The notes under the pieces: generated by a model
Database searches by the model: none
Told to the model about the DNA's origin: nothing
The model's input: only the letters and a program-made list of their open reading frames with translations
Source of the DNA: Branchiostoma floridae
Lineage: Eukaryota > Chordata > Leptocardii > Amphioxiformes > Branchiostomatidae
Assembly (NCBI RefSeq): GCF_000003815.2
Contig: NC_049987.1
Coordinates: 2,977,395 to 3,041,394 of the forward strand
Length of the DNA stretch: 64,000 nt
Direction: 5' to 3'
Shown here: positions 1 to 60,230 of the stretch, one piece after another
Layout of the letters: each line of letters starts with the position of its first letter
Numbering within the stretch: the stretch's first letter is position 1
Program-made: the position numbers and the translations under genes

Positions 1-19394
<19,394 letters not shown>

Positions 19395-47039: not shown

Positions 47040-47045
47040 TTTATT
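47040..47045 (-). terminator. Polyadenylation signal of the lipase-GTPase gene
   Basis: AATAAA on the minus strand, 40 bases after the stop codon that ends at 47085. Confidence 0.55.
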
Positions 47046-47084: not shown

Positions 47085-48402
47085 TTACGCCTTAGTCATG
47101 TTCACTGCAGCGTAGAGCTGATCTTCACCCTCTTTAAACACATCATATTTGATCAGCCAATCTTTCAACCAACTCCTCACCCCGTCCGGCCCGACTATCC
47201 CTCTGCTCTCCAAGTCGTCAACACTCTCCACAAGCTCCGTGAAGAGGATGTCAGCAGGGTCGATATCTAGATTCTTTATGAAGTCCTCCTTGTAAGCAGC
47301 CACAGTCTTCTCATCCTAAAAAAAGGAATTAATTTCAAACCAAGTTCAAGTGTCAACCAAACAGAGATATGCAGCTTGAAAAGATTCAAGTCCAGATATT
47401 TACCTAAGCCATGGCTCGGGCAGGTCTTAAAACTTGCAAGGGTGTGTGTGTGTGTGTTGGGGGGGGGGGGTGCATGGAACTTGTGAACGCTCTATGTAAA
47501 GTGATAGAGGAACTAAATTTTATTTATTTATTTGGCTTTTCAAAATGACTTGATGATCTAATGAAAAGTATATCTTGTACCCTAGTTCTCGACTTCTTAT
47601 CAACATTAACATGATCACCGATGCAAATCTCAAATCATGCACGTTTAGGACGTCTAAAAATTTGAATTGATTGCTTTAGTCACATCGTACGTAAAATAAA
47701 CGGAGTCGTACATCACTTGGATATCCTGTAGTACAAGAATATGCCCACCTTTAGAATGTCCTTAAAGCGACCACACTGACTGATGCACAGTAGAATACAA
47801 CAGTTGTAGTCGTTCGCCAGGATACGAGCTTGTGCAAGCTGTTTGACGTGATCCGTGCTGGTGTCCCCTTGGAACGGCATGACGAGGATGAGGACGCTCG
47901 ACAGTCCCCCACAGCTGTTAGCCAAGTTCGCAACCTGTTCATCGATTGCTGTCGTGCCTGGGAAGTCCATGATCTGAAAACAAACAATGCGATTTTTCAG
48001 GCAGACGCAAATAAAAAGATCGGTTGTCAAATATACATATATGGCTAAAAAATTATACTGTGTTCAGTTCAGATATGCAAAACTTCTTACCACCATTTTC
48101 TTTGCTCCCCTCGCTTTGTAGAGACTTGGGACTGTGGTGTGAGCCCTGTATCCCCTCTCCGGTACGGCCAGACCCCAAACCTTCTGGATAAGTGTGGATT
48201 TACCAGCATTTTGGGGTCCAAACAAACCAACGAAGCAAGACTTTTGCAGGTGCTGGCGAATCTGAAAAAGGTCACAAGCCATCTGGCATCGGCGAAGAGC
48301 TTCCCTCTGGGACTTGTCTTTTGCATCTTTCAGCATTTTTGATGCTTTAAATGGTTTCGATTTCATGATGACTTCTTCATCTTTGTTCAGAAAGTCGAGA
48401 CC
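47085..48402 (-). CDS. IRG/dynamin-like GTPase domain and C-terminus
   Basis: Exon 48402-48091 has the P-loop GPQNAGKST (residues 989-997) after a basic helical stretch, then AHTTVPSLY as probable switch I. Exon 47973-47749 has the DFPGT switch II motif (G3, residues 1034-1038) and LILVMPFQGDTSTDHV. Where TKxD (G4) should be, the chain reads CCILLCISQCGRF, so guanine specificity is uncertain. The last exon, 47315-47085, ends in an amphipathic helix VRSWLKDWLIKYDVF and stop. All exons are phase 0. The DxPG motif favours IRG/dynamin-like over Ras-like families; exact family not certain. Confidence 0.75.
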
Positions 48403-51400
48403 CTAAGACATAAGAAAACATTACAACAGAGTATATTAAAAGACGTTACGACTGCCAGGAAAGTAGCAGTAGCCTATTTTTCGGAAAGACATATTCAATT
48501 CGTACTTTTGTCATGACCTTGGTGATGAACCATTAAAGGAAAAGTACTTAAATCAATCATTTGATTGAGAATGCTGATTGTAACGATTATCAATCAATTC
48601 ATAAGTAGCTCGTTTGTCGTGTCCTTTCCTACAAATTTAAGATATGATGTCGAAGCATTGTGTAAAGTTGGAATGGCGTGACCTTCAATGCAAATTAGAT
48701 CATAGTAAACAACAACTAACTTTGTATTTCTTGTACAAGGTGCGTTCCAAGTTGTACACGTCATCAGTGTTGTCACTGTCTTCCTGCTCGCTCGGTACTT
48801 CGGGTAGCTCCTTTATCAGCATTCTAAATATCACAAGGGGAATAATGGTGTGCTGATGTACCTGTCCCTAGTGACTATTCTACTGTGTAAAATCATTTGC
48901 AGTACATACATAAACATATACACATAAAATAAGACTGATGTCCGACCTGAGAATAGCCTGGTAGTTTTGCTCTTTTTTCCTCAAGTACCAAGCTGCGGCG
49001 GCGGCAGCCGCAGCCGCAGTACCAGCAGCACCCGCAACGGCGCCGGCCCCGGCAGCACCCATGGCTCCACCTGCCACACCGGCCCCGGCAGCACCCATGG
49101 CTCCACCTGCCACACCGGCCCCGGCAGCACCCATGGCTCCACCTGCCACACCGGCCCCGGCAGCACCCATGGCTCCACCTGCCACACCGGCCCCGGCAGC
49201 ACCCATGGCTCCACCTGCCACACCGGCCCCGGCAGCACCCATGGCTCCACCTGCCACACCGGCCCCGGCAGCACCCATGGCTCCACCTGCCACACCAGCG
49301 CTAGCCCCGACAGCACCCATCGCTCCACCTGCCGCACCGGCAGCGGCAGTTTCCGCGGCAGCGGTCAGCAGATACATAGGTGCGGATCCGGCGGCTGCTT
49401 CGGTGGCGGCCGCGTAACCGGCTGTACCCAATCCGGCGATTCCTCCAACCAACAGGACAGCAGCCCCTCCTACAGATGGGTTATAGATACACATGCATGT
49501 TTAAACGTTGAATACTGCTTGGCAGTCAAATACTTTTGTTGCTTGTAGATTCCATATACAAAACATTGTGAAAGAAAGGAAAAGGCGATGCTTCCGGTCT
49601 ACTGGTCACGTTTATAATGTACAGGAGATCTATCAAAGAAGGCTATTTTGCGTAATGTATAAAAGAATGTTTCATACACAGCGAATGATATGAGACAAGA
49701 GCGGAAATACGCTATATAGCCTGATTGACATAGAAAGCCAGACTCCCTAAAGTACCGGTTACACATCCGGAACAAGGCCCCGACCATTGTTAGGAGACTG
49801 AGCTTAACTCGGTTGGCTTGTTTGCGTGTGTGTGTGTGTGTGTGTGTGTGTTAGACTGTTGAGATTCAAAAGTTCACCACTAGATGTTGGAATGGATTGG
49901 TTAGAAGAAGAATAGATAGTACCGAGGTTGTGTTGAGAGTAAGTCTTTCTTTTTTGCACTTTCTTTTGACTGACCTAGACAAGAAGGTAAAGGTAGTCCG
50001 CTTCCGAAGTCAGGTACCTCTTTCTATACCTGGTTGTAGCAATACCCCTGTCACATTATTTACGATCTTCGGGCGTATCGATGGAAGATCAGCCATATTC
50101 AAGATCAACAGACGGTTGCGCGGTTACCAGAAAACCTTCCCTGTCACATATATGCTATACTTTGCACTTTGTACAATTGTTGTGCAATAAAGTTATCATT
50201 ATAAGCGAGGCTCGGGCGATTGCCGCAGAATCGTCCTCCGTTCGATTTTCGCCAAATGTGACAGGGGCATAAGGGCGGTCGTGTTAAGTGCCTTTTTCAA
50301 TGGCACAACGTCTGGGGCACGGATGGTATCGAATTCGTGACCTCTAAGCTGCGAGTCCAACACTTTATCAGTTACGCCACTCACGACGCTACATATCATT
50401 TACCTATCGGGAGATGGTTGGGAAATGGTTAGGACATTGGCACCAATATAGACAAAAATAGATAGGCGTAGGACTGCGAGGGAACCAGTGCCGATTTTAC
50501 CTACGGGCTGTTTGTAGAACCTAAAAATAGAAATGTATTTGCAAAAACGGACACGCCATCATTACCTGCTAGAACACCAGCAACAGTCACCATTCCTTTA
50601 AAGGACGTCAGCCATTGCAAAAGTGACTCTGGGTACTCCACTTTCAATGATTGGCCGAATTCGTCTATGATTTCCTTGACAACTTGGTCCAAGTCTTCGA
50701 TCTTCAGATCGTTCAGACCCGCTGCGTTGTCAATGATTTCATTCAGCTTTACCACGTTTTTCATCCCTATAAACAATTAAATTAAGTTAAATAAAACATT
50801 ACAGAATATGCTACAATTTGCTCTTAGTATTCAAATATATTTTGAACTTTCAAGTATGAAAGAAAAGTTGCAGTGAAGATTTTGCCAATATATCTAAGTA
50901 GAGAGTGTGCTTACATCTTTTTTCGAAATAACATTAGGTACGTATAAATAAGTAAGGACTATGTGTACATATTTCTACGGAAATATTTAGCCTTAGCTAC
51001 GGACGTGCTCCATGGGGTTTTAAGAAATCGTTAAGCCTTCAAATTGTACTATACATAGCAGATAAGATACCGTCGGTACGACAGATAAAGAAAACGTACT
51101 GGGTACCAAATATTGAATAAAACTATGACATACAGAAGCTATGATATACATACACATACCTTCCCTCACTGTTTTTCGCTGACCATCCAGACGATTTAGA
51201 AGCTTTAATACAGTATCTTCCTTTGTCGCCTCCTTTCTGTTTGGTGCCAGCAAGATGTTGGAAAAACTTTGCTGAATGGCTTTGACAAGGACGGCTGGTT
51301 TCAGGTCTTTGACAGCCCACTCTGATAGCGTTAAGCCTCTGGCTTCCTGAAAAAAAAGTCAAAATACTTGAAGTAAGCGTGTAGGATTTGACAATAAACT

Positions 51401-54400
51401 TCAAATGCATAAGCAGTGCTTCCTTTTGTAAAAGTATGGAACAGGGCAATGAGAAGCTAGAAACTAGAAAGGCCGACATTTGCTTGGGTGCAAATACAGC
51501 ATATTTCAGCCATACCCATTCCCACGCAACATTGGACTGTTCCAAGTCAACTGTAAGTTATCCCCAAAAGAGAACTAATATTGTGAATTGATTCCAGGTC
51601 AAAACAGAGCTTGCCCAATATGCCCCGGGCCCATATGGAATAATATAATCTTCCACAGGAGCGCCTATGCATAACTAATTGTTTTTTAGAATCGCGGCAG
51701 CTCCTATTTTTCCGAAAGTGAAAAAAAACGGTATCTTCCATTTAGAAGATTTTCTTCATGAAATTATATGACGGACGCCACTCAACAAATCTCCACTACG
51801 ATAACTAGGTCTGATGCGGGTACATCTATTATTGCGGTGAACTTTTTTTAATCAAGTAGACCATACGTTTTAATAATTATCAAGCAGGTGCAGGTACTGT
51901 GTAGCAGGAGTGTTTTTTTTTCAAGCTAAAAACTTAAATCTTCTTCTTGTTTTGTATGAGCCATTACATAAACGGAGACGTCTCGATTTTTTACAAGAAT
52001 TTTACCACCCTGTCGCTTCATTTCTTTTCTGAAAAATTCCAGGACCAACAAGTTAAGTTGATTTGGGACCACCTCTTCTCAGCGACCACCTGGCCATTTC
52101 GACCGCTTTTTCTCGGTCCCGATTTTTTTTCCCATTGACGTAAGCATTAAGCGACCTTTTCTCAACGACCACCTGTCCAACGCGACCGCGACCGGCCAAA
52201 AATGGGACCCATAACGACCGCGTCATTTTCAATCTTGATGTTTTCATCGATTTTTGATGATAACCAGCGCGATTTTGTGCCGAAATCGGCCAGTTTGCGT
52301 CGATGTTATGTTTAGAATAAAGATGGCGGCGGTCAATGGGTGTGTCAATGTGGCAGTCTACTGTAATATGGGATGAAATTTCGTTGTAAGAAAATCTGAA
52401 TTTAGTTGTTTCGAAGTTTTTTTTTCAAATCTTTATCATTATAAAGTGAACGAATGTTGAAACGTATATAGCTTCATACCTTTTAAAGAAAGATCTGTGT
52501 AGCTCATACCTTTTTAAGAAAGATCTGTACATGTCGCATTCCTGCGTCTAAGATCGTCTTAATATTTGTACACTAACGTTTTAGACAGTAGGGGAACTTT
52601 GATGCTGTCAGTTACCATGCAAGCCTTTATGCGTCGCTGTGTTCTCGATCGCCGTATCTGAAATAACTACGGTGTACATTTCGAATTCGATGCCTGCGGA
52701 GATGCCCGGTACGTCCCAAAGCGTGCTTACCCACGGGTGAATGTACAGTACAATTACTCTTCAAGCAGAGGTTAGGCTCCGGCTGTTTTTTTAAAACGTT
52801 TTTTAGTCGTTTTTATCGGGCTTTCTATTTTGTATTTCATTTTCAGGAAAATGACAAAATAGAAAGCACGATAAAAAAGACTAACAAAACGTTAAAAAAA
52901 CAGCCGGCGCCTAACCTCTGCTCGGAGAGTACAGTACAGTTGGACAAAAGCACTCACACAATAGATTGAGTAGACTGTCTTTTTGACCTCCCTGAGTAGA
53001 GTTTTTCTGGCGCAGGTAGGAACGTCCTGATCCAATTTGCTCCAATTTCTGTTTATTTACTGTATTAAAATTAATCAGGCTTACTGATGATTATTACTTA
53101 CGTTTTTGCGTGCGTGTGCGTGTTTTACTTGACATTAAAGACTTCGCTTACTTACTTCTTTGCGTGCGTGTGTTTGCTATTTGCTATTAAACACAACGGA
53201 AACCATTTATACTATGCATAGGGCATGTTTTGAGTCGATACTCTTCTCAGCGACCACCTGTCCAAATCGACCGCATTTTTCCGGTCTCCCGGTGGTCGTC
53301 TTGGGCAGGTTTGACTGTATTTCAATTTACCTTCAATTTCTTTGTTAAGTATATGCCCCTGCATACCACTGTTAAATTGTTTTACTTTGTATGCAATCAG
53401 CCATCGGACGTAATCTTGTCTTAGTGTTATAATTTCATGCTCGTAGCGTGCGAGACCCGGAAGATAGGAGTTTCTACCTTGTTCGGGGGTTTCTTTTCAG
53501 AGGTCAGTGGTGATACTGGTGGTACTGAGAGTGTTTTATTGGGCTCAAACTCTGGCAGTTTAAAGTTACTTACAATTTGAATGTACAAAGTTTACGTCAA
53601 AAAAGAACAACAACACTAGAAGTACCTACATTTGCTCGGGAAAAAATACATGCATTCTCGCCACTGTCAAATTACGTATCAAAACTAAACGCAAACAGTC
53701 CAAATTTCCCGCGTTTTCCGCCAATTAACATTTTCTCGATTGTCTCAACTAACCCCCAAACGAAAATGATTGATATTGCCATGCGGAATGTTGGTAAATT
53801 CATCGACACAGACTTGTATTCTAACTTTCAATGCACGCGTACGGTCCGCTACCGCTCAAATGACCCTGTCTGAACTCCAAATCCTCGCAAACTACAATTT
53901 CAAACCGTGCACAGGGTGACATAAGGCCACTGTAAGGCTGTAATATGCATCTGTTTGTGTATATACGGGATAGCAAGGCCCCGCTTATGAATATTAACTA
54001 GCATTCTCTTTCCGCGTCGCTGATTGGCTGGATCCATAAAGTAATTAACTCCCGCTCTCCCCAGACCGCTGGCACCTGGCACGTATGGGCTCTGGGGTCA
54101 CGGGAGTTCACGGGAGAATGCCGAAAGAAAACCAACTTCCCCTCAGAAAAGTGCAGAAATTAATAATTTGAAATTGGTTTATGCCAAAAATTTTACTTGG
54201 ATCATTTTAACAACTATCTAATGCCTATCTACACCAAATTTAAAGTCATTCCATTGTAATTCAAGGGTACAGGCCGCCAAAATATACCGTTTTGGTCAAA
54301 ACATGATCTTTAAACTTCAATAAAATCATTTTAGAGGCAGATATGAAAAAAATGAGAAAAAAGCACCTGGGTATTGACCAACTCTACCCTTGTGCCAAAT

Positions 54401-57400
54401 TTCAGGTCATTCGGTCCAGGAACGACGGAGATGATTCGATTTGAAGATTTGACAGGAGAAAGAAAGAAACATTACGAATACAATATATTTCACCATACCA
54501 TATATGGTATGGCTGAAATATAATGAGTTATTTACATATATTCTATTGTGGCAGAGTAGTGGAAATAAAACAACAAGGTGGATATTAAGTGAATAGTCAG
54601 GTACAGAGAAGTAGATACGTATCACATAGATAACCAGACATTGTGATATATTCTCTTTTTAATGAGCATTGGTAATAACTTGGATGGCTTACCTTCACCA
54701 TCTCCCCAGTGACTGGAACGTCTTTCACCTCAAAATGTGTCGTCACGTGGATCTTTGGTACTCCATCCCACGGTATGTTATCTTTCAGCTCACACTCCAA
54801 GGTGACCTCATCATCATTGACAGCCAGTTGCTGTATACCCTTCTCCATATCAACCGGGATTCCTTAACCAAAATTTAAATGGAAAATGAATAAGATAATA
54901 AGTTAAAGAGATTCATTAGTGACGTATAAGCACAGATGATAGTTTTTTCTTCCTCTAACATTGACTTATTTTTAAAGGTAAACACATGTACCTCCAAATT
55001 TTCGATGTCTCGCGAGAATATGAGACTAGGTCGACACTAGGAAGGTGTGAAGCTTACGCAATGTTGGCTGGGAGCTGCCCAAGTCCCACTTACTCCTACT
55101 CCGTAAGGAGGCGGGGGTGAGGGGCAGAAGATCTACACAAGTCTCGACCTACTTTTGCACTCTCGCGAGACTAGGTCAATCCGTGGACAAGATGGACTGA
55201 TAGCCATCGGAAATTTTTAGGTATGTGTGTTTACTTTAAAACATAAGTCACAGTTAGAAGAAAAATTTCTATTAGCTAAGTTGATGAGGTCTTCCAAAGT
55301 TAATCATTTGTGTGGATACTAGTGTATCAACCTCCCTCAAACTGTTGCCCTTAGCTGTTCTATATTCTTGTACGAATATAAACTATTGCAAGCTTTTTCA
55401 CGAACCTTAATGTAAAGTTTCCATACCACGTAATATTATTACCATTACCACTCATGCGCATACATGTAATTGGTACTATACATTTGCATACCTGTTGAAG
55501 GAGTTTCTCCCAAAACGAAGAAGTCAAGGTGTCCTCCATTGATCCTTATTCGGAGTTTCTTCTGTTTTCGAGCTCCCTGAGGACCTATTGGGTGGCAAAA
55601 TAAGTAAATAGAAACTAAAGTAGACTAAAGCGACTGATGACCAACTGACTGACATTTTAAACAGTATACCACGGTTCAGTTAGAAGACCCGTGGCCCTCC
55701 TGTTCACATTTATACAGGTTCTGGGCTGGCCCAAGTAGCGAAAGAACCCTTTAAACATCCGCCACGCTGACGGTACACTGCAACCATATATTGCTGGTTG
55801 CCATTCTTCACATTATACCTTTCATGATATGTGACTAGGCACGAGGCATGCAAAACTCTGAAACTAAAACATCAAGACCATAGCACGCCCAGGACAAAAA
55901 CCGTAAGTTTTGCTGCAGTACCAAGGTCACACACCAGGGGACCCAAACCTGACCATGACCATTATCTTACCAAAAACTACCAACATTACAAATGTCATCT
56001 TAACCCAACCAGTTATGCTGACCACAAATATCTGAAACACACACGCATACACACGTACAGAAAACTTGCCTTCGGTAGTCAAAGAGACATTTTTGATGAT
56101 CAGCGGGAAGGGATTGTACTGCACAGCCGCCAACTCGAAGTTACGTGTGACACTTAATTCCGTTGGCTTTCCTAAGACTGTAGTCTTGGGGTAGACTGTT
56201 GCATATTCGCTGATCGCATGCTCCTTTAGACTGTTTGCTAGAATAGTTAGAGAACAGGGGAATAATATACGAAGGATGCTTGAAACCTTGAACATTTGAT
56301 ATCACTGTATCTTAAGAGCACGCAAGATGAAGAAAGTGAGATTTCAATCTACAATTTATCTATCTTATTAATTTCAAAGAATGCAAGCAACAGTTTCAAA
56401 CTGTTATAGTCGCATATTTCAATGCAAACTGTTAGAATGTAAATAGTATTCTTATACATACGCGTAGATTATGATAGCTTTTGGACCGTAATTTAATTCT
56501 AAAAATAATGGTATATTAGGAGGCACTTACGCGACAACTCCAACTTTCCAGTCCCTCCCATGGTCCTGACGACTTCCTCCGCAGCTTTTTTGTAGGACAC
56601 GTACCACTGGTTCTCCTGTTCGGCGTTCGGTGTTCTGTAGTGTGTGATGATCATATACCAGCCAAGAGGAGTGTACTTCAGGACGTCCTCCAACTCTTGC
56701 ACGTAGCCTTGTAGAGACTGGCTGATGCTCTCAACGTACTCGGGGAGTTGGTTCACCTTACTGATGGCTGAAGCAGCGCTAGCTAGTGCTTGGCCTCCGA
56801 CGCCGGTGAATGAGAGCACCTTTAAACTCTCCATTAGAGTCGGTAAGACCTTCTTGACGATTCGACGGAACTTCGTGAACAAAATAACAAAGTGTGCAAA
56901 GTCAAACATAAACATTCATGCATATGATGTAGAAGCTATGATCATGGAATCACTTTTGCAACAAAACATAAAAAACAAAAGAGAAAACGGAAGCATGTCT
57001 AGTCTTATTTTGAGTCTGAGTGGTTGACTAACACTCCGTAGAGCAGGGAAAGTCTAAAGCTATAGTCACAGTTTGTTTGCTGACCGCCTCTACTGACGTT
57101 TAACTTCGGGTGTAGTCCGCAACTGTCGGACGTCTTTTGATACCATATAGAAAAGCTTTTAAAATTGTAACATTAAAATCCTGACTACCACTCGTGTTTC
57201 AGGAGATGCAGACATCGAATAAGGCCGTATTCTCCAAGCATAGATTTTTGCCGGCAGTCAGCAATCGTAGCGTTGCAGACGTATCAAACAGCGACCATTC
57301 ATAGTGCCCGACAGAAATCTATGCTTGGAGTATACATGTACCACTTACAACTACTACACATCTATGTAAGGGACATACCTCCCTCGTTCCACCTGCTGTA

Positions 57401-59564
57401 GCGCATTGAAATGCCTCTGCCAACTGCAGCAGCCGCGGTACCGGGTCGTTCTGGTTAACGATGGTGAGGAGGTTGTCTGACAGGTCGTGCTTTTCTGCGT
57501 AGTTGCGCATCTCGATGTCACCAAAGAACGGAGCTCCGATAGCGATGGATAGGACCTTCTCTGTGTCACGAGCGCATCTTTTCAAGTCAGCAAGCATGGT
57601 AAGCGTCACAATGTGAGCCACTGCACCTCCCATGCTGTGCCCACACACGACAATACGCGCGCAGTTGTCGCCATAGACGTACTTACGCAGAATTGGATCA
57701 ACGGGAAAGCAGGAGGCCAACTTCAGGAAGCCAGCGTGACACTTCCCGCCCATGGCAGACTCACCTTCAGTGCCAGAGCCTTGCCAAATGGACAGATCTG
57801 ACAGTATGTCTTCATAGCTCTGTGTACCTAACAAGAGATGTTTCAATCTCAATTTTTCCCAAATGGATTTTATGAGGTAAAAAAAGAATTATCAATATCT
57901 CAAAGAATATAAATGAACCTTTTAACAACTTATAACAAAAATAACAAAGGAAGTTGTTACAAAACTAATATAGGATACTGAATGCATTATATATCAGCAA
58001 ACATGTTTCACACGAAAACATAAGACAACGAACAGTGGTAAGTACCGCCTCCCGTACGAATTCGTTGGGAATCCGACGGATTTGGAGCACACAGACACAC
58101 CGTAGAACTTTACGTGCAGGAAAAACTTTGTGTGCCATCGGGCTGCGGATTCGCCCCCACCCTCCCTCCCCGTAAGTGCCAGCCGAGTGCGGGCGACGCA
58201 CCTACCATGTACAGTACGAACGTTTGCAGACATACGTGGCGGACGTGGTCTCCCCAAAAAAACGTACGGACAAATTGTACGTGCGGCGGGTTGTGCCCTT
58301 ATTATTATTAGCTTTACTGACTACTAACTGCTTACCTCTAAACGCAATGAACAGCTCTTCCTTATCGTCTGTCTCAGCCAGCATGTAGGTGAGCCTCCCG
58401 TGTCTGGACACGCAGACTTCCCCGAAGTTGTGCAGACACCGGTTCTCTGGTTTGTTGAGAAACTGCACGACCTTCTCGGGTCCGTCCTGGTAGATGGCCT
58501 GGCAGCACATCATGGCCCGCTGGATGTCGTCCATGCCGACTTTTGCGGACAGACGAGGCGGCATTGACGAGGCTGAAGCTTTTTTAGGCGGTCCATCTGT
58601 AACTACAAATTCCATAACATTGTACACATAACCGGCCTAGAGGTTTGCATTGTAAATTGTAATGTCTAATCATCTTCGTTTGCATGTGCGAAATTCACAG
58701 TATCTACAGCTGGGAGAATGGAGATGAAAGGTAAAAGAGAGGGAGAGAAATTGATTAAATAAATTAGGAACTAGGAAAGCAAAACAGTATACGTATGACT
58801 TCCATGATATGATGACAGCAAACTTCAAGCGCGGAGATTTTGCCATTCTTTGCACTTTGCACCTCCTTGAGTTACCCTCGTACAATGTTTTTTTTTTTAA
58901 GCAAAATCGTCCCGTGCAGTTAGTAATGCTGGTGTTTTGCGTCGATGAGCGGTTATACCTTACGGTAAGGTTAACGTTATGTCCGATACTTAAAAATACA
59001 GATAGAGAAAAAAAATAGTAGACTTGTCCTTATCTCACTCACTCTCTGCCATAAGAGCCCTGTATCACTCAAAAGTCATGTCCACAACAAGACGTTCCGT
59101 TGCAATACATTACAAATCCGACAGGGTGTTCATCACCGTACATGACCGTCGTCTTTTCGACCCCTGCCCATCCATGCATAAAAATCATTAGGAGCCACCT
59201 TCGGCTTCTTGAGCAATGCTTGTCACACAAACACACGGAAAACATTCTTGGCAGGGTAGCAAGGTGCTTTCTACTCACCTGGACCATCAGTTTTAACCTG
59301 GACCTTGCACTTGACCTCGTACTCTTTGTTGGCCTTCAAGTTGAACAGGCTGTCATTCCCATCTCCATTTGAGAAAATGAACTCGTTCTGCTCTACGTCG
59401 ACAAGACCGTAAGGATACTCAGGAAGTTCAAGAGCTTGTTTGAGTTTATTTGGTGTTACATCCTTCAGTTTGAGTTTAAGCTTTGTTTCAGAATAGACAA
59501 ACACAGCTGTGGAAGTGGCTAACACAGCTGTGGAAGTGGAGTTCTTGCTTTCTGCATTCCCCAT
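47085..59564 (-). CDS. Class 3 lipase fused to an IRG/dynamin-like GTPase domain
   Basis: Fourteen exons: 59564-59279, 58596-58336, 57827-57379, 56870-56531, 56237-56070, 55584-55492, 54862-54693, 51346-51160, 50766-50566, 49469-48947, 48823-48721, 48402-48091, 47973-47749 and 47315-47085. They sum to 3549 nt, exactly 1182 codons plus stop, and every junction agrees in phase. Domains: Met-Gly N-terminus (1-95), class 3 lipase (about 96-460), beta-rich and helical middle (460-718), hydrophobic Gly/Ala segment (719-890), GTPase (928-1182). Predicted cytosolic and membrane-attached, hydrolysing lipid esters, with a nucleotide-dependent module. One intron uses a GC donor (56070/56069). I know no well-characterised gene with this architecture; an immune or membrane-remodelling role is inference. 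Confidence 0.78.
48721..48823 (-). CDS. Acidic connector exon
   Basis: A 103-nt exon (phase 2 to 0) encoding MLIKELPEVPSEQEDSDNTD and DVYNLERTLYKKYK between the membrane segment and the GTPase domain. Acceptor ATTTAG, donor AAA|GTTAGT. Confidence 0.65.
48947..49469 (-). CDS. Glycine-zipper membrane segment
   Basis: A 174-residue exon: a hydrophobic helix (AAVLLVGGIAGLGTAGYAAA), an Ala/Gly stretch, then seven near-identical copies of the 12-residue unit GGAMGAAGAGVA preceded by one diverged unit, and an Ala8 run into WYLRKKEQNYQ. The GxxxG spacing is typical of glycine-zipper transmembrane helices that pack or oligomerise in membranes. The basic residues after Trp-Tyr suggest a membrane boundary. 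Acceptor TGTAG, donor CAG|GTCGG (phase 2). The repeats are encoded by the 36-bp minisatellite at 49048-49305, so length may vary between individuals. Confidence 0.72.
49048..49305. repeat. 36-bp coding minisatellite
   Basis: About seven near-perfect copies of a GC-rich 36-bp unit. All forward and reverse frames stay open across it, explaining several spurious overlapping frames. It is in frame with the lipase-GTPase gene. Confidence 0.95.
50268..50400 (-). mobile_element. tRNA-derived SINE fragment
   Basis: On the minus strand: gtggcgtaactgataaagtg (A-box-like), then aggtcacgaattcgatacca (B-box-like), then ccccagacgttgtgcc and gcacttaacacgacc. Same family as 32393-32588. Lies in the intron between 50566 and 49469 of the lipase-GTPase gene. 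Confidence 0.7.
50566..51346 (-). CDS. Helical segment before the hydrophobic region (two exons)
   Basis: Exon 51346-51160 encodes LTLSEWAVKDLKPAVLVKAI, then QQSFSNILLAP and KEDTVLKLLNRLDGQRKTVR. Exon 50766-50566 encodes MKNVVKLNEIIDNAAGLNDL, EDLDQVVKEIIDEFGQSL and a final GMVTVAGVLAG running into the next hydrophobic exon. Predicted mostly helical; no domain name. Confidence 0.65.
52057..52197. mobile_element. Fragment of the TACAGTCAAACCTG MITE family
   Basis: Contains gcgaccacctggccatttcg, accgctttttctcggtccc and cgaccacctgtccaa, as in 21584-21788, but no terminal inverted repeats. Intronic. Confidence 0.6.
52755..52931. mobile_element. 177-bp foldback element
   Basis: Left tcaagcagaggttaggctcc and right gcgcctaacctctgctcgg are inverted. 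Pairing continues through ggctgtttttttaa/ttaaaaaaacagcc, acgtttt/aaaacgt, gggctttctattttgt/acaaaatagaaagcac, about 80 bp per arm around a ~15-base loop. Intronic. Confidence 0.8.
53203..53319. mobile_element. Right half of a TACAGTCAAACCTG MITE
   Basis: Matches 21670-21788 from accatttatactatgcat to the terminus caggtttgactgta; the left end is missing. Intronic. Confidence 0.7.
54693..56870 (-). CDS. Post-lipase helical and beta-rich region
   Basis: Exon 56870-56531: FRRIVKKVLPTLMESLKV, a hydrophobic helix with GGQALASAASAI, then TPLGWYMIITHY. Exon 56237-56070: HAISEY and GKPTELSVTRNFELAAVQY. Exon 55584-55492: ARKQKKLRIRINGGHLDFFV. Exon 54862-54693: DDEVTLECELKDNIPW and KIHVTTHFEVKDVPVTGEM. 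The alternating strands suggest one or two beta-sandwich domains. No family assigned. The intron between 56070 and 55584 has a GC-AG form with an otherwise perfect donor AAG|GCAAGT. Confidence 0.65.
55831..56052 (-). repeat. Dispersed repeat copy (family of 19829-20640)
   Basis: Shares ctgcagtaccaaggtcacac, gggacccaaacctgac and an ending tatctgaaacacacac with that family, inverted. It lies immediately downstream of the GC donor at 56070, so the intron start borders the repeat. Confidence 0.5.
57228..57333. mobile_element. Second CTCCAAGCA foldback MITE
   Basis: tattctccaagcatagattt and aaatctatgcttggagtata are inverted ends about 106 bp apart. Same termini as 17673-17813 but different centre. 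It sits between exons 57379 and 56870, only 46 bases from the lipase exon donor. Confidence 0.68.
57379..58596 (-). CDS. Class 3 lipase catalytic exons
   Basis: Exon 58596-58336 ends KEELFIAFRG and exon 57827-57379 starts GTQSYEDILSDLSIWQG. Together they form the IAFRGT.s..D...Dl block typical of Lipase_3. Then GKCHAGFL, the nucleophile elbow IVVCGHSMGGAVA (Ser247), GAPFFGD and LTIVNQNDPVPRLLQ (Asp310). A His in LKEHAISEY (residue 452, exon 56237-56070) is placed as expected for the third triad member. Class 3 lipases hydrolyse acylglycerols or phospholipids; the true substrate is unknown. No signal peptide, so it is intracellular. Confidence 0.85.
59030..59270 (-). repeat. Dispersed repeat copy at the end of lipase-GTPase exon 1
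   Basis: Shares tctctgccataagagccctg-like text, atcactcaaaagtcatg, aaaatcattaggagccacct and a tail of cacacaaacacac with 24680-24950. It begins eight bases beyond the donor at 59279. Confidence 0.55.
59279..59564 (-). CDS. First coding exon with N-myristoylation-type start
   Basis: The ATG at 59564 begins MGNAESKNSTS: Gly2, small residue 3 and Ser6 fit the N-myristoyltransferase pattern MGxxxS. Next comes a beta-type region with VFVYSETKLKLKLKDV, LELPEYPYGLVDVEQNEF and NKEYEVKCKVQVKTDGPG. Donor CCAG|GTGAG, phase 1. The start was chosen because it is the first Met of the open frame and because the myristoylation signal follows at once. Confidence 0.68.
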
Positions 59565-59972: not shown

Positions 59973-60230
59973 GTAGTGTCTTGTGGAGACTATCTAGTGT
60001 CTTGTGGAGACTATCTAGTGTCTTGTGGAGACTATCTAGTGTCTTGTGGAGACTATCTAGTGTCTTGTGGGGACTATCTAGTGTCTTGTGGAGACTATCT
60101 AGTGTCTTGTGGGGACTATCTAGTGTCTTGTGGGGACTATCTAGTGTCTTGTGGGGACTATCTAGTGTCTTGTGGGGACTATCTAGTGTCTTGTGGGGAC
60201 TATCTAGTGTTTTGTGGGGACTATCTAGCA
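59973..60230. repeat. 21-bp minisatellite, 12 copies
   Basis: Unit tagtgtcttgtggagactatc, about 12 copies; later copies have ggg in place of gga. As 21 is divisible by three, three frames stay open, but there is no start context or splice signal supporting coding. It lies ~410 bases upstream of the lipase-GTPase ATG. Confidence 0.95.

Follow-up and report, generated by a model that had tools for sequence, protein, structure and literature searches.

The lipase and NTPase gene in the window

The window analysed here is a stretch of 64,000 bases (C9:2977395-3041394) from Branchiostoma floridae, for which a lancelet assembly with 19 chromosomes is available (PMC7269912); the genome searched comprised 513 Mb in 431 contigs. 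On the minus strand of the window, fourteen exons between 59564 and 47085 splice into a frame of 3549 nt that encodes 1182 residues followed by a stop, with zero internal stops. GT-AG borders were found in 12 of the 13 introns, and the intron after exon 5 is of the GC-AG type, with donor GCAAGT. A previous sequence-only reading of this DNA had proposed fourteen in-phase exons joining to 1182 residues, and the open spliced frame and the consensus splice sites bear it out. Our confidence in the anatomy of this gene is high.

All the features of the gene lie on the minus strand. Exon 1 (59279-59564, residues 1-95) holds the MGNAESK start and an unnamed N-terminal domain, exon 2 (58336-58596, residues 96-182) the beginning of the lipase domain, and exon 3 (57379-57827, residues 183-332) the lipase core with the motifs FRGT, GHSMGGA and NDPVPR. 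Between the Asp and the His of the predicted triad, exon 4 (56531-56870, residues 333-445) encodes a Gly/Ala-rich insert and a Y-P-GWYM motif, and exon 5 (56070-56237, residues 446-501) carries His452 and ends in the GC-AG donor. Exon 6 (55492-55584, residues 502-532) is of a type also present in lipase loci on C4, and exon 7 (54693-54862, residues 533-589) is the last exon type in common with them. Intron 7 (51347-54692), of phase 0 and 3346 bases, is the longest of the gene. Exons 8 (51160-51346, residues 590-651) and 9 (50566-50766, residues 652-718) form a bridging region, at whose end a hydrophobic segment begins, and exon 10 (48947-49469, residues 719-892) encodes a putative hydrophobic Gly/Ala hairpin within which lies a tandem array (49043-49349). 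Exon 11 (48721-48823, residues 893-927) leads into the NTPase domain, whose P-loop (G1) is in exon 12 (48091-48402, residues 928-1031), whose G3 and degenerate G4 are in exon 13 (47749-47973, residues 1032-1106), and whose end is in exon 14 (47085-47315, residues 1107-1182, stop TAA). A putative polyadenylation-type signal AATAAA was found by eye at 47040-47045, about 40 bases past the stop.

Other features were observed in the window. A 21-bp tandem repeat of 12 copies (59974-60228) lies 0.4-0.7 kb upstream of the start of the gene. At 7926-8522 and 9181-9675, on the minus strand, there are two exons of uromodulin-like D8C domains (PF23283, E 1e-19 and 1e-16), and at 12971-17018, on the plus strand, open frames resembling a LINE-type retroelement, with a reverse transcriptase recognized by eye and a first frame that has no Pfam match.

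With respect to the lipase half, residues 178-316 match Lipase_3 (PF01764) with E 6e-21 and 75.2 bits, over the curated Pfam cut-off of 22. The class 3 lipase with an apparent Ser247/Asp310/His452 triad that had been read from the sequence is thus upheld, with the residues at the positions claimed and His452 as a candidate. The GHSxGG nucleophile (in the window, the GHSMGG Ser247 codon at 57634-57636) and the catalytic Asp (Asp310 of NDPVPR, codon at 57445-57447) were present in all nine members of the family described below and in both C4 lipases read. The candidate catalytic His452 (codon at 56218-56220) is His in every one of the nine copies, in an E/A-H context. When a lipase profile built from four of the nine copies was compared with solved structures, the best matches were PAD4 (8zf0_C, 6e-9), a triacylglycerol lipase (1lgy, 8e-9), another lipase (6a0w, 8e-9) and EDS1 (8zf0_B, 9e-9). 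Of the alignments to solved structures, three were listed: Ser was aligned in each of them and Asp with the D of QHDVVPRLL in PAD4; since His lies beyond these three, its candidacy rests on conservation and spacing.

A family of nine loci

The search of the genome with the NTPase exons 12-14 gave 27 matches at nine loci, with three per locus; one locus is in the window, another at C8:10.46 Mb and the remaining seven at C9:24.02-24.17 Mb. When exon 13 of a cluster copy was used as the query (E up to 10), the same nine loci were found, together with one chance match (E 0.92). A similar search with exons 8-10 of a cluster copy (E up to 1) gave 22 matches, of which 21 fell within the family and one outside it (E 0.88); eight of the nine loci were recovered, the one missed being p8, whose exons 8 and 9 were found with the window query. 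Lipase_3 had 14 matches in the genome, 12 of them strong; nine of the strong ones precede an NTPase on the same strand, and the other three are on C4. In all nine loci the lipase, the bridging exons, the hairpin and the NTPase keep the same order and strand.

Splice models were built for the eight paralogues, imposing the phases of the window gene and refusing exons with stops, so that phase and openness are partly assumed in them. Exons 3-6, 8, 9 and 11-14 were present in all eight models. Exon 7 was modelled in seven (p145 shows a search match alone), as was a counterpart of exon 10 (that of p8 was read by eye), while exon 2 was modelled in five, being outside the models of p8, p13 and p145, where the upstream DNA was not covered or did not match. 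Splice sites fell exactly at the predicted codon in 72/92 acceptors and 60/84 donors, and within two codons in 86/92 and 74/84, respectively. The end of exon 5, at least 5 codons off in seven of the eight models, is unsure, and so are exons 8 and 9 of p8. No internal stops were found at the junction codons of the joined segments.

The lipase tree (11 rows) and the NTPase tree (9 rows) both placed the window copy with p8 and p166, apart from the six other copies, with support of at least 98/96, although the program warned of long branches near C4. Within the six the trees differ in detail, as p09 joins p02 and p05 in the NTPase tree only. The dN/dS values were 0.15-0.39 for the lipase (33 of 36 pairs computable, 3 without dS) and 0.08-0.41 for the NTPase exons (21 of 36 computable, 15 without dS). 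In the middle region they were 0.14-0.43 in 16 of 28 pairs, with 11 pairs lacking dS and a value of 0.92 between p02 and p05, where dS is only 0.026; many of the dS values between clades exceed 1 and are saturated. That the exons recur at eight paralogous loci, and that every computable pair except one has a dN/dS below 0.5, is more than chance would give. Both halves have been kept by purifying selection and have travelled together. In exons 2-3 (58596-57379), dS between the window copy and p166 (C9:24.165-24.167 Mb) was 0.35 and 0.47, compared with 0.60-2.12 in the other exons, which hints at gene conversion.

These data bear directly on whether a lipase gene and an adjacent NTPase gene were wrongly joined. 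The gene model is known from genomic sequence alone, and an ATG stands at the start of exon 12 in six of the nine copies, all six in the cluster. However, the window copy, p8 and p166 lack this ATG, no free NTPase copy was found in the genome searches, and the linkage, the bridging exons, the order and the strand are conserved in the nine loci, with the main split shared by both trees. Two separate genes are rejected by this conservation, and we regard such an artefact as hardly credible. The lipase and the NTPase are almost surely one gene, as the fusion read from the window sequence had proposed.

The hydrophobic segment, the NTPase and the origin of the fusion

Hydropathy analysis of the window protein showed a strongly hydrophobic peak at residues 707-740, encoded by exons 9 and 10, and a peak at the equivalent place was present in the six other full paralogue models tested. 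Exon 10 encodes about 53-66 residues in all eight paralogues versus about 174 in the window copy, and this difference is due to an in-frame tandem array of a 36-bp (12-residue) unit in 8.4 copies, which is absent from exon 10 of the eight paralogues. Spots of the form (GAS)xxxGxxx(GAS) number 37 in the window protein, most of them in the repeat, and 5-9 per model in six paralogues, few of them in the hairpin; no Pfam family of glycine zippers matched the window protein. Because exon 10 is short in the paralogues and the window copy carries the repeat, the long zipper looks, as far as tested, like a private expansion and not part of the family core, probably a recent lengthening of a short hairpin by the 36-bp repeat, and perhaps variable in length. 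What holds for the family, then, of the glycine zipper originally described is a hydrophobic, Gly-rich segment; its great length belongs to the window copy.

The other end of the protein presents a comparable case. MGNAESK fits the N-myristoylation pattern. The domain of exon 1 was matched at seven other places of the genome, each time from query residue 6 or later and none with an MGN start, and the equivalent position in p166 and p02 reads MASAGS. The myristoylation-type start is therefore not a trait of the family in the copies checked and, if real, looks private to the window copy as far as tested. In the N-terminal and middle regions, scanned in four pieces, no Pfam family exceeded its cut-off.

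Two AlphaFold models, one of the lipase core and one of the hairpin, were also obtained, with low mean pLDDT values (47.1 and 56.5), and neither serves as evidence. The lipase-core model, of a C4 lipase with the family exons as alignment, presents a strand-elbow-helix at GHSLGG as well as an insert that is long and helical; that of the hairpin presents three helices.

At the C-terminus, residues 985-1078 match MMR_HSR1 (E 9e-7, 29.5 bits against a curated Pfam cut-off of 21.9), and the best solved match to the NTPase is mitochondrial IF-2 (E 2e-6). The TRAFAC hallmarks, GxxxxGK[ST] at G1 and DxxG at G3, are present in the nine copies. The P-loop of the window protein is GPQNAGKST (48193-48219, residues 989-997), with the form GPQ[ND][AGS]GK[ST]T in 9/9, and G3 is DFPG (47956-47967, residues 1034-1037) in eight copies and DFHG in one. 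In classical GTPases the G4 motif reads guanine. Mitochondrial IF-2 has NKCD at the place where the window protein has a degenerate SQCG (47770-47781, residues 1096-1099); across the family this place reads SQCG, NQCG or SHCG, and the K and D of [NT]KxD are missing in all nine copies. As G4 is degenerate throughout, specificity for GTP is doubtful and should not be assumed: with G4 lost, the domain may take ATP as its ligand, bind no nucleotide at all or serve as a scaffold. A prokaryotic or viral origin of the NTPase was also considered and rejected, since none of the 65 and 66 matches of short patterns in prokaryote and viral contigs was confirmed, with the reservation that distant relatives may escape such patterns.

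The C4 lipases offer a view of how the fusion may have arisen. They lie at 29.26, 29.64 and 29.67 Mb, and the first two were read. Both share lipase exons 2-4 with the family and have the exon 7 type (E 2e-7 and 2e-4) and, more weakly, the exon 6 type (E 0.005 and 0.034); one of the matches to exon 1 adjoins the lipase at 29.26 Mb. While the C4 lipases are alike to the family in the lipase exons and the exon 6 and 7 types, they differ from it in that the bridge, the hairpin and the NTPase were not found there. The best match of the exon 8-14 queries at the two loci (E 0.05) was inside a lipase exon, in another frame. A genome search with PF01926 found nothing in the vicinity of the C4 lipases, a weak result because this profile also misses the family's own intron-split domain. 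The NTPase-free state of the C4 lipases rests on two of the three loci, over about 8 kb downstream of each, together with the genome-wide NTPase searches; as the search with exons 8-10 missed one known family locus, a diverged free copy could have escaped as well.

Given that these searches found exons 8-10 and 12-14 in the family loci only, intron 7 is the best position for the joint, which probably lies there. A lipase like those of C4, contributing exons 1-7, would have gained there a unit of bridge, hairpin and NTPase (exons 8-14); the fused gene would then have been duplicated into a family, and the hairpin of the window copy lengthened by the repeat. The NTPase unit may instead have been lost from the C4 lipases rather than gained in the family. 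In the case of a gain, the C4 lipases without this unit and the fused genes would show the states before and after such a fusion.

Proposed function, rival readings and comparison with known families

What the nine copies show directly is a common gene model and order of domains, conservation of the catalytic residues and of the P-loop, a hydrophobic stretch, and the mark of purifying selection. From these elements we propose that one gene, which arose by fusion and was then duplicated, encodes one membrane-seated serine lipase with a C-terminal NTPase control, a reading that we hold with slightly better than even confidence. The enzyme would be a class 3 alpha/beta hydrolase, controlled by a TRAFAC-class NTPase that lacks a guanine-reading G4, with the order N-terminal domain, lipase with its Gly/Ala-rich insert between Asp and His, bridge, hydrophobic hairpin and NTPase. 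The protein is presumably intracellular, and its hydrophobic segment would form a hairpin that inserts in a membrane or a monolayer. Nucleotide binding, turnover or oligomerisation of the NTPase might then position or uncover the lipase at the membrane, and this step we infer purely; lipid cleavage would be confined to the places and times of NTPase engagement. We rate our confidence in a lipase mechanism under NTPase control as middling. If true, the pairing would let a nucleotide directly control lipid cleavage, and the nine copies would provide natural variants for its dissection, with SQCG, NQCG or SHCG at G4, DFPG or DFHG at G3, and a repeat-expanded hairpin.

Other functions have to be weighed against the one proposed. 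The protein could be a lipase that resides at lipid droplets or the ER, with the hairpin in the monolayer, a neutral lipid or DAG as substrate, and an NTPase serving for assembly or targeting and not for gating. The complete candidate triad of the class 3 lipase and, in the paralogues, a short, hairpin-sized hydrophobic segment would suit this function, but Gly/Ala-rich segments also suit insertion in a bilayer. Although the data at hand do not tell this function apart from the one proposed, we consider it unlikely. The loss of G4 also allows a pseudo-GTPase scaffold in which G1 and G3 remain without acting as a nucleotide switch, the lipase being constitutive or controlled by a partner. The absence of the K and D of NKxD from every copy and the DFHG of one of them are consistent with such a scaffold; nevertheless, the conservation of GK[ST]T and DFxG in the nine copies, together with the low dN/dS of the NTPase (0.08-0.41 in the 21 computable pairs), argues that nucleotide chemistry was kept, and TRAFAC NTPases without a normal G4 exist. 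We assign to the scaffold a small share of the probability.

The sequence-only reading had also raised cell-autonomous immunity, in which an IRG-like effector would direct the lipase against the membranes of intracellular microbes under control of the NTPase. The seven-copy local array within 160 kb, the remote similarity of the G domain to those of lancelet IRGs, and the presence of PAD4 and EDS1, which act in plant immunity, among the nearest solved lipase domains could all be taken in its favour. Against it, the profile, G4 and layout are all non-IRG, as detailed below, the similarity to PAD4 concerns the lipase core alone and comparable scores are reached by other class 3 lipases, and metabolic genes form arrays too. 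Immunity is suggested by the local array and the family resemblance only, and we find an immune effector of this kind improbable. On a wider scale, it could be speculated that the membrane-seated lipase proposed above represents a new animal enzyme class, switched by its own NTPase with an altered nucleotide preference, and that its members are lancelet effectors that destroy or remodel microbial or organelle membranes, with an in-frame minisatellite varying the length of the hairpin; taken as a whole, this is a long shot.

The comparison with known families begins with the IRGs, to which, or to the dynamin-like GTPases, the C-terminal domain had been ascribed. The family resembles IRGs in GKST, in DFPG and in a remote similarity of the G domain, and it differs from them in the G4 SQCG, in a hydrophobic part located before the G domain and in the fused lipase. 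With E values of up to 1 allowed, the IIGP profile (PF05049) did not match the window protein, and among the eight family members scanned (p05 of the nine was left out) it gave one match, at E 0.075; elsewhere in the genome it had 12 matches, zero of them at the family loci, which served as a positive control. Two lancelet IRGs that were read have SKFD and SKID at G4 and, by eye, a hydrophobic part after the G domain. The helical domain that follows the G domain in IRGs has no fit here either, as the protein ends 83 residues past G4. Comparison of the family with the lancelet IRG G domains by hhalign gave 96.6% over 144 columns, which supports a remote G-domain fold common to both; since the alignments were small (8 and 2 sequences) and IRGs were the sole G-domain family compared, this match does not single them out. 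IRG membership was thus rejected by the IIGP profile, by the G4 lost in 9/9 copies and by the domain layout, while the P-loop GTPase-type domain stands: judged by its motifs, the switch belongs to the TRAFAC-class NTPases and resembles IRG and dynamin G domains from afar, without being an IRG. At C9:22228703-22238139, two open frames of 922 and 1017 aa match MMR_HSR1, the former also IIGP (E 6e-4), and are possible multi-G-domain proteins.

With the dynamin superfamily there is a weak match to Dynamin_N (PF00350; E 1e-5), whose best stretch, residues 1027-1081, surrounds G3. It reached 25.7 bits with the whole protein and 30.2 bits with the C-terminal 289 residues, versus a cut-off of 27. Among the profiles proposed for checking the gene, Lipase_3 was therefore confirmed over its cut-off, IIGP failed to match, and Dynamin_N remained just short of its threshold with the whole protein and exceeded it with the C-terminal part. 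Past the G domain of the window protein there is no space for the stalk and GED helices of dynamins. By analogy, a membrane hairpin is coupled to a G domain in atlastin and mitofusin.

As regards lipases, no match to the EP domain of the plant proteins EDS1 and PAD4 was found with Pfam at E up to 1, a search that a diverged EP domain would escape. No animal lipase-GTPase fusion appeared in the literature searched, which covered titles and the beginnings of abstracts among the matches listed, most subscription papers being outside it. The family is like the class 3 lipases in the Ser of GHSxGG, the Asp of DPVPR and a conserved His downstream, and unlike them in the insert between Asp and His and in the C-terminal hairpin and NTPase. 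Its parts are known singly; what is unusual is to find a lipase paired with a P-loop NTPase across a hydrophobic hairpin in a single animal protein.
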